From Candidatus Bathyarchaeota archaeon (lineage in GTDB: Archaea; Thermoproteota; Bathyarchaeia; TCS64), in contig JABIBQ010000028.1 of the NCBI GenBank assembly GCA_018652685.1, positions 62,001 to 126,000 on the forward strand: a DNA stretch of 64,000 nt, in the 5' to 3' direction. Shown here piece by piece: positions 27,139 to 54,195 of the stretch (positions are counted from its first letter, which is position 1; every line of letters starts with the position of its first letter). A program made the position numbers and the translations under genes. A model generated the notes under the pieces. That model worked only from the letters and a program-made list of their open reading frames with translations, had not been told where the DNA came from and ran no database searches.

Positions 27139-29193
27139 ATGCTGATCAAAGAGGTAATTCTAGAGAACTTCATGTCATACGAGTATGCCCGTATACCCCT
27201 TAGGGAAGGGGTGAACGTCGTATGCGGACCAAACGGCTCGGGCAAGAGCAGCCTCCTTCTAGGAATCTGCGTCGCCCTCGGGGACACATACACAGAGAGA
27301 TCAAAAAAATTAAGCGACCTCATCAGGTGGGGCGCTGATGTCGCCAGGGTAACTTTGACCCTTAACAACGGCAAAAAGGCAAACGGCTACAGGCCCGTCC
27401 CACAGTACAACATGGACGATATCACCCTCACGAGGACCCTCCGCACGGACGGCAAGTATGGTTTCCAGCTCAACCAGAGGAATGTCTCGAAGATCGAGGT
27501 AGTCAGCCTGCTCAAGACTTTCGGTTTCGACCCCAATAATATGCTCATCATCATGCACCAGGCCATGCCAACCAGGTTTGCCAACATCAACCCTAAGGAG
27601 AGGCTCAAGATACTGGAATCCGCAGTCGGGTATGAGACGTTCAGGGATGACGTCATCGAGGCCAAGAGCAAGCTAAGCGGAGTCCTCAGCGAGGAGCAGA
27701 GCCTTGGTAGCCTAATGAACCAGGCAAGGGAGACACTCAATTACTGGCGCGAGCAGAACGAGAGGCTTCAGGAAAAGAAACAACTCCAGACCAGGCAGGT
27801 CTTTCTCCAGCAGGAGATGGCATGGAGCCGCGTCGTAATGCTTGAGGCACAGGTCGAGAAGCTACTGGACCAATTCGGCGACACCGAGAAGGACTTGGCT
27901 GATGCCGAGGCCGAGATGGCCAGGAACACCCAGAACATCGTTGACTCAGAGTCATCTCTACGTGAGATGCGCACCCACAGGAACGACCTCATCGAGAAGA
28001 GGATCGCGTCAGAGAGGGCAATCGGCGTAAACGAGTACAGCATCAACGCTGCCAAGGAGCAGATTACCCAGCTTGACAGGATACTCAAGAACAGCCAGGA
28101 GCAGAGGCAGAGGTTCGAGTCAAGCTTCAAATCATTACTTTCACAGGTCCAGGGTAGCGATACCAAGCTGGACGATTACTTCAGCCTCTTCACCCAGATC
28201 GAGGAGACACAAGTCGAGTCATACGACAGCCTCAATACCGAGTTCGGATCACAGAAGATGGTCAACCAGACCAGCCTAGAGTCCTTCTCAAACCAGCTAT
28301 CAGCGGCAGAGGAGGAGAGCCTGCGCCTCATGAACGAGATGGAGGGCGTCCGCAGGGGTATCGAGCAGTCAAACGACAAGTACATCGATTCCAGGATCAG
28401 GCTGGCCCTCCTCAAGGACAGGAGGCAGAGGCTAAGCCGCAGGGTACAGCTACTACAGGGCGAGATTGACAGGGCAAACAGGGATCTGAAGGACTCAGAG
28501 GCAGAGGCACTCATCAGGGGCCCCAGGATCGAGACCGGTAGGACCGGCGACGACATACTCAACGAGATCAGGAAAACCCAGGGCATCCTCATGGGCATGG
28601 CAAACATCCCCGACGAGGCCGAGGAGATGTACGAATCCTACAACGAGACCTATAAGGAGATTCAGAAGCGCATCGAGGAGGTCAGGGCCAACAGGATCAG
28701 AATTCTACAGGAGATCGAGGAGCGCCAGAAGAGGTGGCGAGAGATGACCGAGACGATGCTTGACGAGGTCAACATCCGGTACAAGCAGCTTCTCAGGAAG
28801 CTCCAGGCCGTAGGCGAGGTCAGGCTCATCAACAACCATGACATCGAGGAGGCCGGGCTTGAGATGTACGTTGGCTTCAAGGGGGCGGCGACACAGAAGC
28901 TGGACCCCTACACCCATAGTGGAGGCGAGAGGAGCAGCAGTGTAATGGCGTTCCTGCTGGCACTGCAGCAGAACATACTGAGTCCATTCCGGGCAGTGGA
29001 CGAGTTCGACCTGCACATGGACCCCCAGAACAAGGAGGCCGTCAGTGATTTCATCGTCTCTACCATGGCGGGCACAAACGACCAGTATATCGCCATCACG
29101 CCTAGCCAGGTCACTTTCAAGGGAACGGATGTCCACATCATCATGATTCACAAGTCCGAGACGGTCTCGATACCGAGGCTAGTGGAGGCGTAA
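27139..29193 (+). CDS. SMC-superfamily ATPase, SMC5/6-like, short arms, no recognisable hinge
   Basis: Walker A GPNGSGKSS after LENFMSYEYARIPLREGVNVVC; QEMAWSRVVMLEAQVEKL; signature HSGGERSSSVMAFLLALQ; Walker B SPFRAVDEFDLHMDPQNKEAV; 684 aa. Confidence 0.85.
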   Translation: MLIKEVILENFMSYEYARIPLREGVNVVCGPNGSGKSSLLLGICVALGDTYTERSKKLSDLIRWGADVARVTLTLNNGKKANGYRPVPQYNMDDITLTRTLRTDGKYGFQLNQRNVSKIEVVSLLKTFGFDPNNMLIIMHQAMPTRFANINPKERLKILESAVGYETFRDDVIEAKSKLSGVLSEEQSLGSLMNQARETLNYWREQNERLQEKKQLQTRQVFLQQEMAWSRVVMLEAQVEKLLDQFGDTEKDLADAEAEMARNTQNIVDSESSLREMRTHRNDLIEKRIASERAIGVNEYSINAAKEQITQLDRILKNSQEQRQRFESSFKSLLSQVQGSDTKLDDYFSLFTQIEETQVESYDSLNTEFGSQKMVNQTSLESFSNQLSAAEEESLRLMNEMEGVRRGIEQSNDKYIDSRIRLALLKDRRQRLSRRVQLLQGEIDRANRDLKDSEAEALIRGPRIETGRTGDDILNEIRKTQGILMGMANIPDEAEEMYESYNETYKEIQKRIEEVRANRIRILQEIEERQKRWREMTETMLDEVNIRYKQLLRKLQAVGEVRLINNHDIEEAGLEMYVGFKGAATQKLDPYTHSGGERSSSVMAFLLALQQNILSPFRAVDEFDLHMDPQNKEAVSDFIVSTMAGTNDQYIAITPSQVTFKGTDVHIIMIHKSETVSIPRLVEA

Positions 29194-29194
29194 T

Positions 29195-29968
29195 ATGTCA
29201 GAGCTTGAGAGCGTCATCAACCTGTGCCTGATGGTTCAGAGCGGCAAGATCGAGCCATTCGACATCGATTTTGATTACGTGATGAGTGTTATCAAGAAGA
29301 ACTATCCAAACCTCAAGAACGTCCAGGAGTTCTGCCTGGACGCACAGGCGCTCAAGGAGCTGAGCAACGTCCTTGAGCGGCAGAACCAGTGGATCGAGCA
29401 CCAGTCAACCACGTTGTACAAGGACCCGTTCATGTTGAGCCAGAGCCTCATGGGCATGGACATCGGGGCCATAGCGAACGCGTTCCTCCGTTCATGGCAT
29501 CCACTCATGGAGATGGAGCAGATAAGCACCAAGACCTTGGCGGGGAGCCTGAGCTACTGGGGCGGACTGATACCCTTCGATGAGAGGTGGCAGGACTGCC
29601 TAGTGGAGGAGCGAGAAACTGAGTACGCCAGCATGGACGAGGCGATAGAGCTGGGTTTCATACCCGGAGAGGGGTTCACGGAGGTCGTGGAGAACTTTTG
29701 GAAGGAGCTCGGTGAGCGCGTCGGTCCAGGAGGTATAATAGAATACTGGGAGTGGATAGGGGAGGAGACCTACGAGGCCACCGTATACAGGGCCTACTTA
29801 ACGGTCTTCATGGTGGGTTACGGCTACGCGAACGCCCACTGGGACCGACTCATGGAGGAGAACAAGATCATACACAACGTGGAGCCGCGGCCTGACCCGG
29901 GCCAGCAGAAGGTCAGCATACCGACGATGGTAGATTACGAGGAATGGAAACAATGGCAAAACGATTAA
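29195..29968 (+). CDS. Putative kleisin-like (ScpA/Nse4-type) subunit of the SMC complex
   Basis: N-terminus LESVINLCLMVQSGKIEPFDIDFDYVMSVIKKNYPNLKNVQEFCLDAQALKELSNVLERQNQWI resembles ScpA; 1 nt downstream of the SMC stop codon. Confidence 0.45.
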   Translation: MSELESVINLCLMVQSGKIEPFDIDFDYVMSVIKKNYPNLKNVQEFCLDAQALKELSNVLERQNQWIEHQSTTLYKDPFMLSQSLMGMDIGAIANAFLRSWHPLMEMEQISTKTLAGSLSYWGGLIPFDERWQDCLVEERETEYASMDEAIELGFIPGEGFTEVVENFWKELGERVGPGGIIEYWEWIGEETYEATVYRAYLTVFMVGYGYANAHWDRLMEENKIIHNVEPRPDPGQQKVSIPTMVDYEEWKQWQND

Positions 29969-30531
29969 CCAAGACGGAGCAGGTATACCAGAGGAAGCTA
30001 AAGGACGCGGTCCACCTACTATTCTTCACACACCACAGGCTGCCCGGCGTGCGTGGTTGGGAGCTGCGCAAGGAGCTGGGTGCCGACTGGCAGAACATTA
30101 TCGAGGTTCTGGACAAGCAGCTCCAACCACTTGACCTAAAGGTTACCCGAGTCTTGGAAGAGCCAGACATCGTGGAGCCCACCAACGCCCAGTTACAGGA
30201 GGCGAGGTACTACATCATCATGAGGGGCACCGTTGACCAGAAGACCGCCAAGACCATCGGCTGGCGAATCGACGACATAGCGGGTCTGGCCGTATCCGTG
30301 GCCTATATCATCTCAAAGCAGGGCAAGGTCCCCCGCCAGGACGTGGAGCGGATACTGGAGGAGAAGCTGCCTGGATGGAGGGTCAAGCTCAACATCGACA
30401 GGTACGTCCGCCAGGGTTACCTGGGAGAGGACGACTCGGGTATCCTGTACCTCGACTGGAGGGCAAGGGCAGAAATTGATACAAAGAAGCTCGTTGATCT
30501 CGTGGTCAGTTTCGGAAAGAAAGCGGCCTAA
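29944..30531 (+). CDS. Putative kite-type winged-helix subunit, Nse3/MAGE-like
   Basis: GLAVSVAYIISKQGKVPRQDVERILEEKLPGWRVKLNIDRYVRQGYLGEDDSGILYLDWRARAEIDTKKLVDLVVSFGKK resembles the MAGE homology domain (..WVRQ-x-YL..Y-x-W-x-RA-x-AE..); overlaps the upstream ORF. Confidence 0.5.
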   Translation: METMAKRLTKTEQVYQRKLKDAVHLLFFTHHRLPGVRGWELRKELGADWQNIIEVLDKQLQPLDLKVTRVLEEPDIVEPTNAQLQEARYYIIMRGTVDQKTAKTIGWRIDDIAGLAVSVAYIISKQGKVPRQDVERILEEKLPGWRVKLNIDRYVRQGYLGEDDSGILYLDWRARAEIDTKKLVDLVVSFGKKAA

Positions 30532-31116: not shown

Positions 31117-31512
31117 ATGGCGCAAGATGATCCTAAAATGTTGGGCACAGTTAACGAGGTTGGCCTGAAGAGGGACGAACAGGAGTTCAGGAACTATAAC
31201 CTCACGGTCGGGATCAAGCTCAAGACAGGGAAGAAGCTGACCTACGCAGAGGGCGCGAAGCTCATCAAGCAGCTTAGGAAGAACCTCCTCGGCAAGAACA
31301 TTGAGCTGGAGGCCATCGCCGTGCCGTGCCCATTCTGCGGTAAGACCTACAACAGCGAGACGGGCATGAAGCAACATGTTAGGCGACAGCACGAGGGTGA
31401 GGAAGAACCACCCAAGAAGAAACGGGGCCGTATAAAAAAGGCAGCAGTCAAAAAGCCCACCAAGAAGTCGGCAAAGAAGCCGAGGAAAAAGTCTGCCTCC
31501 AAGAAAAAATAA
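31117..31512 (+). CDS. C2H2 zinc-finger protein with histone H1-like Lys/Ala/Pro-rich tail
   Basis: CPFCGKTYNSETGMKQHVRRQH then KKKRGRIKKAAVKKPTKKSAKKPRKKSASKKK. Confidence 0.75.
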   Translation: MAQDDPKMLGTVNEVGLKRDEQEFRNYNLTVGIKLKTGKKLTYAEGAKLIKQLRKNLLGKNIELEAIAVPCPFCGKTYNSETGMKQHVRRQHEGEEEPPKKKRGRIKKAAVKKPTKKSAKKPRKKSASKKK

Positions 31513-36448: not shown

Positions 36449-39508
<3,060 letters not shown>

Positions 39509-51329: not shown

Positions 51330-51859
51330 GGGAGCTTGATGTCAGGATCCGTCCTGACCAGCTCGATTATCTTTTTCGCTGACCATTTTACATAGTCTTC
51401 ACAGAAATAGATGCCATTTGCCCTGTTCTCTGCGTATTTTTTCTTACCCTCCTCGGTTCTAGTATTCGCCCCGAGCAGGTCATAGCAGTTGACGTTTCCC
51501 CACTTGTCCTCGAACATTTGCAGGTAGATCTGGGTCTTCTCCCTCGCTTTTTCCCTGATTGCCGTGTATTCATCCGGGGCCTCGTCGCCGTTGGTGCCCA
51601 TGAGCAGCCCGTAGACCATGCATCCCCCGCTTACAGCACCGCAGAGGCTTCCCCAGCCCCCGCCGCCGCCACCCATGTTGGATGTTGCCCTCATTACTTC
51701 TTTCCCAAAGCCTTCCAGTGGTATCTCGTCGTTCACGAACATGATTACGCTTTCACAGCAGTTGTACCGCTTGCCGTCCTTCTCGTACATGCCTGACATG
51801 TATCCACACTCGTAGAAAATGCTATCGAAAACGGTGAGTTTTATCAAATAGGACTGCAA
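51326..51859 (-). CDS. C_GCAxxG_C_C family redox protein
   Basis: RYNCCESVIMFVND...EVMRATSNMGGGGGGWGSLCGAVSGGCMVYGLLMG; start uncertain (ATG at about 51799 possible). Confidence 0.85.
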   Translation of the reverse strand: MQSYLIKLTVFDSIFYECGYMSGMYEKDGKRYNCCESVIMFVNDEIPLEGFGKEVMRATSNMGGGGGGWGSLCGAVSGGCMVYGLLMGTNGDEAPDEYTAIREKAREKTQIYLQMFEDKWGNVNCYDLLGANTRTEEGKKKYAENRANGIYFCEDYVKWSAKKIIELVRTDPDIKLP

Positions 51860-51879
51860 TGGTTGTAGTGATTTCCATC

Positions 51880-54195
51880 ATGTCCGATGTTGACTCCATC
51901 CTTGAACAACTAACCATCGAAGAGAAGGTCTCGCTATGCTCAGGTTTCGGCCCGTGGAGCACCAAGAAGATCGAGCGTCTAGGGATCCCAGCCGTTTTCA
52001 TGAGCGATGGACCCCACGGTCCTCGTTGGATGAAAAAACAGAGCTACACCCAGAGTGCCAAGTGGGATATGAGCAGCCTATCCCACTTAACGACTAGGTC
52101 TGGTTACCTTGACCTACTCCACCCTGTCACTAGTTTTCCGTCCATGGCTACTCTAGGATCCAGCTGGAACCGTGAGATACTATACAAGGTAGGGCAGTCA
52201 ATCGGCGAGGAGTGTCGCGAGCTGGGGATTGGACTCTTACTGGCACCTGGAGTGAACATCGTAAGGCATCCGCTGTGCGGCCGATCATACGAATACCTGA
52301 GCGAGGACCCTGTTGTCGCCGGTGAGCTTGGCTCCTCTTACATCAATGGAGTCCAGAGCACGGGAGTCGGGGCGACACTGAAGCACTTCGTGTGCAACAA
52401 CGCCGAGTTTGAAAGGCTCAGCATGGACTCGATAGTCGAGGAGAGAGCCCTCAGAGAGTTATACCTCGCCGTATTCGAGCGAATAGTCAAGCAGGCTAAC
52501 CCATCAATGGTGATGGAGAGTTACAACAAGGTCAACGGGACAAGCCTAGTTGAGAACAAGCGCCTCTTGACTGATATTCTAAAGAAGGAGTGGAGTTTCC
52601 AAGGCGCTATTATCAGCGACTGGTGGGCCGTAAACGATAGGGCGGATGCACTCAACGCCGGGATGGACATCGAGATGCCTCAAAACCTGTTCAGTGAAGC
52701 CGTGCTACTAGAGGCTGCTAAAGATGGTAAGGTTTCCATGGAGCAGCTTAATGACTCTTGCAGGAGGATTCTTTACATCATCGAAAAATACGCCAACCTG
52801 GAAAAGGTGAAGGCAGACTTTGATGCACACCATGAGATAGCGAGGAAAGCAGCAGGTGAATCCATTGTGCTCCTTAAGAACGACGGAGCTCTGCCATTGA
52901 AAGGTGACGAGAAGATCGCCGTAATAGGATCCTTCGCCGAGACTCCGCGTTACCAAGGAGTTGGCTGTTCCATCGTGAACCCAAGAAAGTTGCTGGCTCC
53001 TCTAACTGAGGTCAAGGCAAAGGCAGGCAACGTATCCTATGCGCAGGGATATGATATTGACCACGAGACTAGTGCGCAGCTACTGGACGAGGCGACGGCT
53101 CTTGCCTCAAAATCCGAAGTTGTTATCCTGTTCGCTGGTCTCCCAGAGGAGGTGGAGACCGAGACACATGACAGGACCGACTACAATATGCCCGCAACTC
53201 ATATTGAGCTCATTAAAGCAGTGTCTGAAATCAACAAGAATGTAATAGTGGTGCTGCAGAACGGCTCAGCTGTTGCCGTCCAGCCCTGGATGGGGCAGGT
53301 ATCGGCTATCGTCGAGGCTTGGCTGGGAGGAGAGTCAGGCGCTGGAGCAGTTACCGATGTTCTATTCGGTGACGTGAACCCTTCTGGTAAGATTGCCATT
53401 ACATTCCCAGAGAAAATCGAGGACTCACCGGGGTACCTGAACTTCCCAGGAGAGAACGGGGCGCACATGTATGCCGAGGGCATCTTCGTGGGTTACAGGT
53501 ACTATGAGAAAAAGAAAATCACGCCAACCTTCCCATTCGGGTACGGTATGAGCTACACTGAGTTCCAGTATAGTGGCCTAAAGCTTGACAAAGAGTCAAT
53601 GACTAACGAGGAAATGCTCACTGTCACCCTTTCGGTCACCAACACGGGAAAAATTGCAGGGAAGGAGATAGTTCAGCTCTATGTTGCACCACATGGCTCA
53701 AAGCTCAAGCGACCCGAGAAGGAGCTGAAGGAATTCGCCAAGATACACCTTGAGCCAAGTGAGTCCAAGGAGATCTCGTTTGAGCTATCGGAGAGGGCTT
53801 TCGCGTACTATGATGACCATTACGCGGAGTGGATCGTGGACAGCGGAGAATACTCCATCCTGATCGGTGCCTCATCAGCGGATATCATGCTCAAATCCTC
53901 TGTCGATATGATCTCAAAACAGGTGTTCTTCACCCCATTCACTGGTGAGAGTTACTGTTACAACCTGCTGGACAACCCTCATGCGATCGCTGCGTTCAAG
54001 AAGGTAATGATCGAGAACGATGTCTGGTCCGCAGATGTCACAGACGAGTTCATCGAGGCCATCAGGCACAACTTTATCCCCCTGTTCAAATCAGTGACCC
54101 GTCAGACAAGTGGTGCGGTTAACCGGAAGACATTTGACTCCTGGATGGAGCAGGTCAACAGGGAAACCTATCAGTCTATGAAAAAGGCTGCCTAG
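51880..54195 (+). CDS. Beta-glucosidase, GH3
   Basis: LTIEEKVSLCSGFGPWSTKKIERLGIPAVFMSDGPHGPR...GAIISDWWAVNDRADALNAGMDIEMP plus fibronectin-III-like C-terminus; start reassigned to MSDVDS. Confidence 0.95.
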   Translation: MSDVDSILEQLTIEEKVSLCSGFGPWSTKKIERLGIPAVFMSDGPHGPRWMKKQSYTQSAKWDMSSLSHLTTRSGYLDLLHPVTSFPSMATLGSSWNREILYKVGQSIGEECRELGIGLLLAPGVNIVRHPLCGRSYEYLSEDPVVAGELGSSYINGVQSTGVGATLKHFVCNNAEFERLSMDSIVEERALRELYLAVFERIVKQANPSMVMESYNKVNGTSLVENKRLLTDILKKEWSFQGAIISDWWAVNDRADALNAGMDIEMPQNLFSEAVLLEAAKDGKVSMEQLNDSCRRILYIIEKYANLEKVKADFDAHHEIARKAAGESIVLLKNDGALPLKGDEKIAVIGSFAETPRYQGVGCSIVNPRKLLAPLTEVKAKAGNVSYAQGYDIDHETSAQLLDEATALASKSEVVILFAGLPEEVETETHDRTDYNMPATHIELIKAVSEINKNVIVVLQNGSAVAVQPWMGQVSAIVEAWLGGESGAGAVTDVLFGDVNPSGKIAITFPEKIEDSPGYLNFPGENGAHMYAEGIFVGYRYYEKKKITPTFPFGYGMSYTEFQYSGLKLDKESMTNEEMLTVTLSVTNTGKIAGKEIVQLYVAPHGSKLKRPEKELKEFAKIHLEPSESKEISFELSERAFAYYDDHYAEWIVDSGEYSILIGASSADIMLKSSVDMISKQVFFTPFTGESYCYNLLDNPHAIAAFKKVMIENDVWSADVTDEFIEAIRHNFIPLFKSVTRQTSGAVNRKTFDSWMEQVNRETYQSMKKAA

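Follow-up and report, generated by a model that had tools for sequence, protein, structure and literature searches.

A three-gene operon of Bathyarchaeota that seems to encode a minimal Smc5/6-type genome-maintenance machine

The locus and its genes

The window, by which we mean the whole 64,000-nucleotide stretch of DNA analysed, carries three adjoining genes on its forward strand in the order SMC, kleisin and KITE. The kleisin ORF (29195) begins one base past the SMC stop codon (29193), and the KITE gene overlaps the final 25 bases of the kleisin ORF. The features are as follows.

27139..29193, + strand: short Smc5/6-type SMC ATPase, 684 aa, with coiled coil and no SMC hinge domain
29195..29968, + strand: Nse4-like kleisin, 257 aa, with N-terminal helical domain, linker and C-terminal winged helix (residues ~161-230)
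29944..30531, + strand: KITE gene of the Nse1/Nse3(MAGE) type, 195 aa, ATG start, tandem winged helices, without RING
29971..30222, + strand: winged-helix domain A of the KITE protein, residues ~10-93; helices 10-27, 38-45 and 49-63 and strands 65-70 and 88-93 in the model
30268..30453, + strand: winged-helix domain B of the KITE protein, residues ~109-170, the segment singled out in an earlier sequence-only reading

The ORF at 29944-30531 is a real gene, because open-frame homologues are kept in 38 of 41 relatives, in 93 of 121 genomes at class level and in 123 of 300 at the level of the phylum (Thermoproteota). Both the 195-aa frame and the segment quoted in the sequence-only reading were recovered exactly on the forward strand; on the opposite strand, stops interrupt the frame of this ORF. 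Amino acid identity is 74-95% in the genus and 38-55% over the class, dropping with taxonomic distance, so the gene looks like an inherited one. Many homologues start three residues further in, at the level of MA(K/R)R, which makes M4 (29953) a possible true start. Among the invariant positions are P34, G35, W39, E40, G106, R108, G127, W145, Y159, W172, R173 and E177. The best 80 loci from a contig pattern search are all archaeal, and those with a name belong to Candidatus Bathyarchaeota, which agrees with the archaeal host that had been proposed.

Other genes of the window include one just downstream (31117-31512, + strand) whose product combines one C2H2 zinc finger with a lysine-rich H1-like tail, and which is not a conserved neighbour elsewhere. 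Two large ORFs at 36449-39493 and 51859-54195, read as beta-galactosidase-like and family-3 glycosidase-like, respectively, suggest carbohydrate use.

The KITE protein

The AlphaFold2 model of the KITE protein (pLDDT 88.7) contains two tandem winged-helix domains, at residues ~10-93 and ~109-170, as well as a helical tail, the second domain being modelled with helices at 109-124, 131-139 and 144-157 and strands at 128-130, 160-162 and 167-170. When this model was compared with 350,542 PDB chains by Foldseek, the best 50 matches listed were led by human NSE1 (5hvq_C; E value 1.2e-5), followed by 7dg2_A (E value 2.5e-5), MAGE-G1 (5hvq_D; E value 3.2e-5) and 7dg2_C (E value 1.1e-4). Chain 5hvq_D is taken as MAGE-G1 because the PDB names 5hvq_C as NSE1, and the 7dg2 chains belong to an Nse1-Nse3-Nse4 complex (PDB). 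MukE was the next KITE match (E value 6e-4), while ScpB was absent from the best 50 PDB matches listed. The TM-scores are moderate (0.55-0.58), as expected of two domains with variable orientation. By the terms of the sequence-only reading, a lead of ScpB, MarR or other winged-helix proteins among the structural matches would have spoken against a MAGE-like identity, and the kite folds of ScpB and MukE were to be compared; the lead was taken by Nse1, MAGE-G1 and Nse1-Nse3-Nse4 chains.

A comparable picture emerges at the family level. Across 37 phylum-wide homologues scanned with 24,736 Pfam models, MAGE was matched by 15 and SMC_Nse1 by nine, with any other family at three or fewer. In 300 whole genomes, the eleven top matches of the MAGE model all fell on the KITE gene, as did 17 of the 24 matches at an E value ≤ 0.01; the model had no matches in 14 control genomes. 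Most of its matches to the KITE gene cover profile positions ~118-206, i.e., the WH-B region, and in the homologues these positions align on domain B, where the sequence-only reading had correctly placed the resemblance. The likeness of the family to MAGE WH-B exceeds chance.

The window protein itself, however, has no match to Pfam MAGE (PF01454) at an E value ≤ 1, and its match to Pfam Nse1 (PF07574; E value 0.017) scores 15.5 bits, below the cut-off of 23.3. The Pfam MAGE cut-off is reached by the KITE gene in one of the 300 genomes, and the Nse1 model gave mostly noise over whole genomes. PDB sequence searches with the single KITE protein and two KITE profiles returned nothing significant (NSE1, E value 0.49), NCBIfam had no useful match for either the KITE protein or the kleisin, and neither a CxxC motif nor a C-terminal RING was found in 67 KITE homologues. 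Because the window protein alone is sub-threshold, the claim is carried by the family-level and fold-level evidence. The MAGE family, which is eukaryotic and derives from Nse3, is thus resembled in WH-B sequence and in overall fold, above other winged-helix families. The label 'Nse3/MAGE-like' holds to that extent, but the protein resembles Nse1 just as well, has neither RING nor CxxC and stays below the MAGE cut-off, and for these reasons 'Nse1/Nse3-type KITE' is more accurate than membership of the MAGE family.

The SMC protein

The product of the first gene matches Pfam SMC_N (E value 8e-34) and includes the Walker A motif GPNGSGKSS, the signature SGGERS, the Walker B region AVDEFDLHMD and the sequence QYIAITP. 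In a single-sequence phmmer search of the PDB, Smc5 was the best match, narrowly above an archaeal SMC. With a family profile the top nine sequences were human Smc6 and yeast Smc5 and Smc6 at 200-232 bits (Smc6 232, Smc5 222), the first sequence outside Smc5/6 being a Pyrococcus-type SMC with 179 bits, next to human Smc5 with 178. The head motifs of the family, SGGER, SPFRAVDEFD.HMD..NRE and Q(Y/F)..ITP, are likewise of the Smc5/6 type. The same cell also has a canonical SMC, a protein of 1183 aa with a hinge that is encoded elsewhere in the genome (G000:C22:17800-22300, L205). At the corresponding motifs this canonical SMC has PFYLFDEIDAHLDD and QFLMIS, and its C-terminal head finds canonical SMCs with 192 bits and Smc5 with just 47. 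By both profile and motifs, then, the operon SMC is nearer to Smc5 and Smc6 than to other SMCs. In a tree of C-terminal heads it stands apart from the canonical SMC, with Smc5 and Smc6 unplaced where long branches meet.

Smc5 and Smc6 carry a hinge between long coiled coils, which the operon SMC does not have. Its length is 572-685 aa, with arms of 240-360 aa of coiled coil in total and no CxxC hook, and SMC_hinge is not among the 25 Pfam families listed for 18 homologues. The ASRP family (ClsN, Sph) also consists of short archaeal SMC-related proteins; the operon SMC differs from it by the Smc5/6 motifs, and an assignment to this family was rejected (NCBIfam NF045487, 64.8 bits where the cut-off is 300).

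The kleisin

The model of the middle gene product places a long helix of 31 residues (43-73) in the N-terminal domain and a winged helix at the C-terminus, the middle part being of low confidence; this predicted domain plan is the usual kleisin layout. A profile search of the PDB returned Nse4 first (E values 5.7e-6 and 5.8e-6, then 1.6e-5), with human EID3 at 1e-4, and a fold search had Nse4 as both first and second match (E value 1.5e-4). Nse4_C (PF08743) is matched by 24 of 31 kleisin homologues; its Pfam cut-off is exceeded in eight genomes, where the coordinates fall inside the same kleisin gene. The window kleisin itself has no Pfam match. The sequence-only reading overlooked both this adjoining Nse4-like kleisin and the Smc5/6-like SMC, and it is these two that weigh more as evidence.

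Linkage across genomes and alternative readings

In the 300 Thermoproteota genomes, KITE is present in 123 and the kleisin in 124. Every KITE genome (123 of 123) has the kleisin, and the single kleisin without KITE (genome G041) lies at a contig end. The kleisin is almost always directly upstream of KITE, and the order SMC-kleisin-KITE is kept in nearly all loci. As exceptions, two genomes have two genes inserted between kleisin and KITE, in one the SMC is on the opposite strand, and in two it lies elsewhere in the genome. In five genomes the SMC does not directly precede the other two genes, and each of them encodes a relative of 569-607 aa at another site (E value < 1e-98). In a sample of eight genomes that have neither kleisin nor KITE, the search recovered only an SMC of canonical length (E values 1e-40 to 1e-23), weak matches in frames of 700 aa, or no match at all. 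The SMC, kleisin and KITE genes are gained and lost together, in genomes that, as counted here, are not independent of one another.

The recurrent neighbours act on DNA; of 58 loci, 20 have an SF2 helicase and four have topoisomerase IB. The helicase, which from sequence reading we take to be Lhr-like, is large and, in many lineages, encoded in convergent orientation to the KITE gene (e.g., L165:4907-7765, - strand), and the topoisomerase, of the eukaryotic type, lies upstream on the opposite strand in L147, L148, L150 and L151. In 11 loci a conserved protein with no Pfam match is encoded divergently from the SMC gene (e.g., a 236-aa ORF at -3 in L160). The two genes inserted between kleisin and KITE (L165:2565-4191 and L181:2551-4177) have products with pilin-like N-termini.

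The same data bear on the possibility that the KITE protein is an archaeal ScpB, i.e., a housekeeping subunit of an ordinary SMC-ScpA condensin. The tandem winged-helix plan is common to KITE proteins, archaeal scpB genes are known (PMC7055376), and a canonical hinge SMC is present in the same genome. Yet ScpB is missing from the best 50 fold matches listed, as noted above, and from the Pfam families listed for 67 KITE homologues, the KITE gene does not adjoin the canonical SMC, and genomes with a canonical SMC can be without KITE. We therefore regard an ScpB identity as very improbable. Pfam ScpA matches nothing in the genus of the window, and the kleisin of the canonical SMC may be divergent.

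Equally improbable, in our estimate, is a defence system of the Wadjet, Lamassu or MADS kind, in which the SMC would sense foreign DNA. Wadjet likewise unites an SMC, a kleisin and a KITE, and in PADLOC the operon SMC matches mad3 (E value 1.3e-31), LmuB (E value 1.1e-20) and JetC. However, neither the kleisin nor the KITE protein has a PADLOC match, no conserved nuclease or effector gene adjoins the operon, and the KITE gene is single-copy with a divergence that follows taxonomy, as in an inherited core gene. Since the PADLOC matches are only generic SMC-like ones, defence was set aside as the main reading. Least credible of all is a stand-alone role as a MAGE-like ubiquitin-ligase cofactor or winged-helix transcription factor, for while most eukaryotic MAGE proteins act away from Smc5/6, winged helices are frequent in regulators and a few KITE members match TrmB or MarR, the kleisin accompanies KITE in every genome that has it, and no RING or ligase gene is found among the conserved neighbours.

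The proposed complex

Because the closest solved relatives of each gene product are the matching Smc5/6 subunits, and because the three genes are conserved together, we propose that the operon very probably encodes a minimal Smc5/6-type complex, composed of an SMC homodimer, one kleisin and a KITE homodimer, and acting as an ATP-driven DNA clamp. Its composition is well supported, and the data also show the gene linkage, the folds of the KITE protein and of the kleisin end domains, and the ATPase motifs; its assembly and function we infer. An SMC homodimer, a kleisin that joins neck and cap, a KITE dimer on the kleisin linker and clamping by ATP are all established features of SMC biology. With a single SMC gene of this type and a single KITE gene, both products would act as homodimers. 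The kleisin would grip the neck of one SMC with its N-terminal helices and cap the head of the other with its C-terminal winged helix, with the KITE dimer seated on the linker. ATP binding would join the SMC heads, which together with the kleisin and the KITEs would then clamp duplex DNA, and ATP hydrolysis would reset the clamp.

In Smc5/6, DNA clamping is mostly the work of the KITE subunit Nse3 (PMC10512200), and by analogy the operon KITE is likely to be the DNA-contacting subunit. The machine would probably serve genome maintenance beside the canonical hinge-bearing SMC, keeping DNA in place or shifting it where repair or replication structures form. We lean towards such a role, with some reserve, as a guess from the relatives and the neighbouring genes.

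Relation to known systems

The eukaryotic Smc5/6 core (Smc5, Smc6, Nse4, Nse1 and Nse3/MAGE) has the same three kinds of subunit, provides the best PDB relatives and shares the head motifs, the Nse4-type C-terminal winged helix and the Nse1/Nse3-type tandem winged helices. It differs in having two SMCs and two KITEs, where the archaeal operon has one gene for each, in bearing hinges and in the RING that the operon KITE is without; Nse2, Nse5 and Nse6 were not recognised near the archaeal operon. Bacterial SMC-ScpAB and MukBEF resemble the proposed architecture, i.e., an SMC homodimer, one kleisin and a KITE homodimer, and MukE follows Nse1/Nse3 among the KITE fold matches. In contrast to these systems, the operon SMC is hinge-less, and its head motifs, the kleisin and the KITE protein are all nearer to Smc5/6.

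Archaeal 'SMC5/6-related' SMCs have been found to cluster with the SMC5 and SMC6 of eukaryotes (bootstrap 100, posterior 0.99; Yoshinaga and Inagaki 2021, as cited in PMC9389158), and the operon SMC probably belongs among them. As that work is cited in PMC9389158, it concerns the SMC protein, to which the kleisin, the KITE protein and the operon are added here. According to a survey of 2020, archaeal SMC complexes operate without KITE, and smc, scpA and scpB were not found in Crenarchaeota (PMC7055376). An archaeal Smc5/6-related SMC is thus already published, while for the kleisin, KITE and operon described here there may be earlier priority. Our literature search found no description of an archaeal Nse4 or Nse1/Nse3; a preprint of 2024 by van Hooff et al. 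(cited in PMC12188315), which reportedly treats the evolution of SMC complexes, including archaeal ones and Smc5/6, may overlap with the present work and have priority.

Evolutionary implications

Nse1, Nse3/MAGE and Nse4 are mostly discussed as eukaryotic proteins. A conserved archaeal operon with a counterpart for each of the three core Smc5/6 parts would allow the eukaryotic complex to be traced back to prokaryotes. Tentatively, and with more doubt than confidence, we speculate that Thermoproteota hold an ancestral-grade, hinge-less Smc5/6 in which a single KITE covers the tasks later divided between Nse1 and Nse3, and a single SMC the tasks of Smc5 and Smc6. From such an operon the eukaryotic form would have arisen once SMC and KITE were duplicated. 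The operon would also offer a simple three-gene system for studying DNA clamping by Smc5/6 without the eukaryotic add-ons, and its natural hinge-less version a test of the need for a hinge in machines of the Smc5/6 type. In toto, Bathyarchaeota seem to encode a minimal Smc5/6 genome-maintenance machine.
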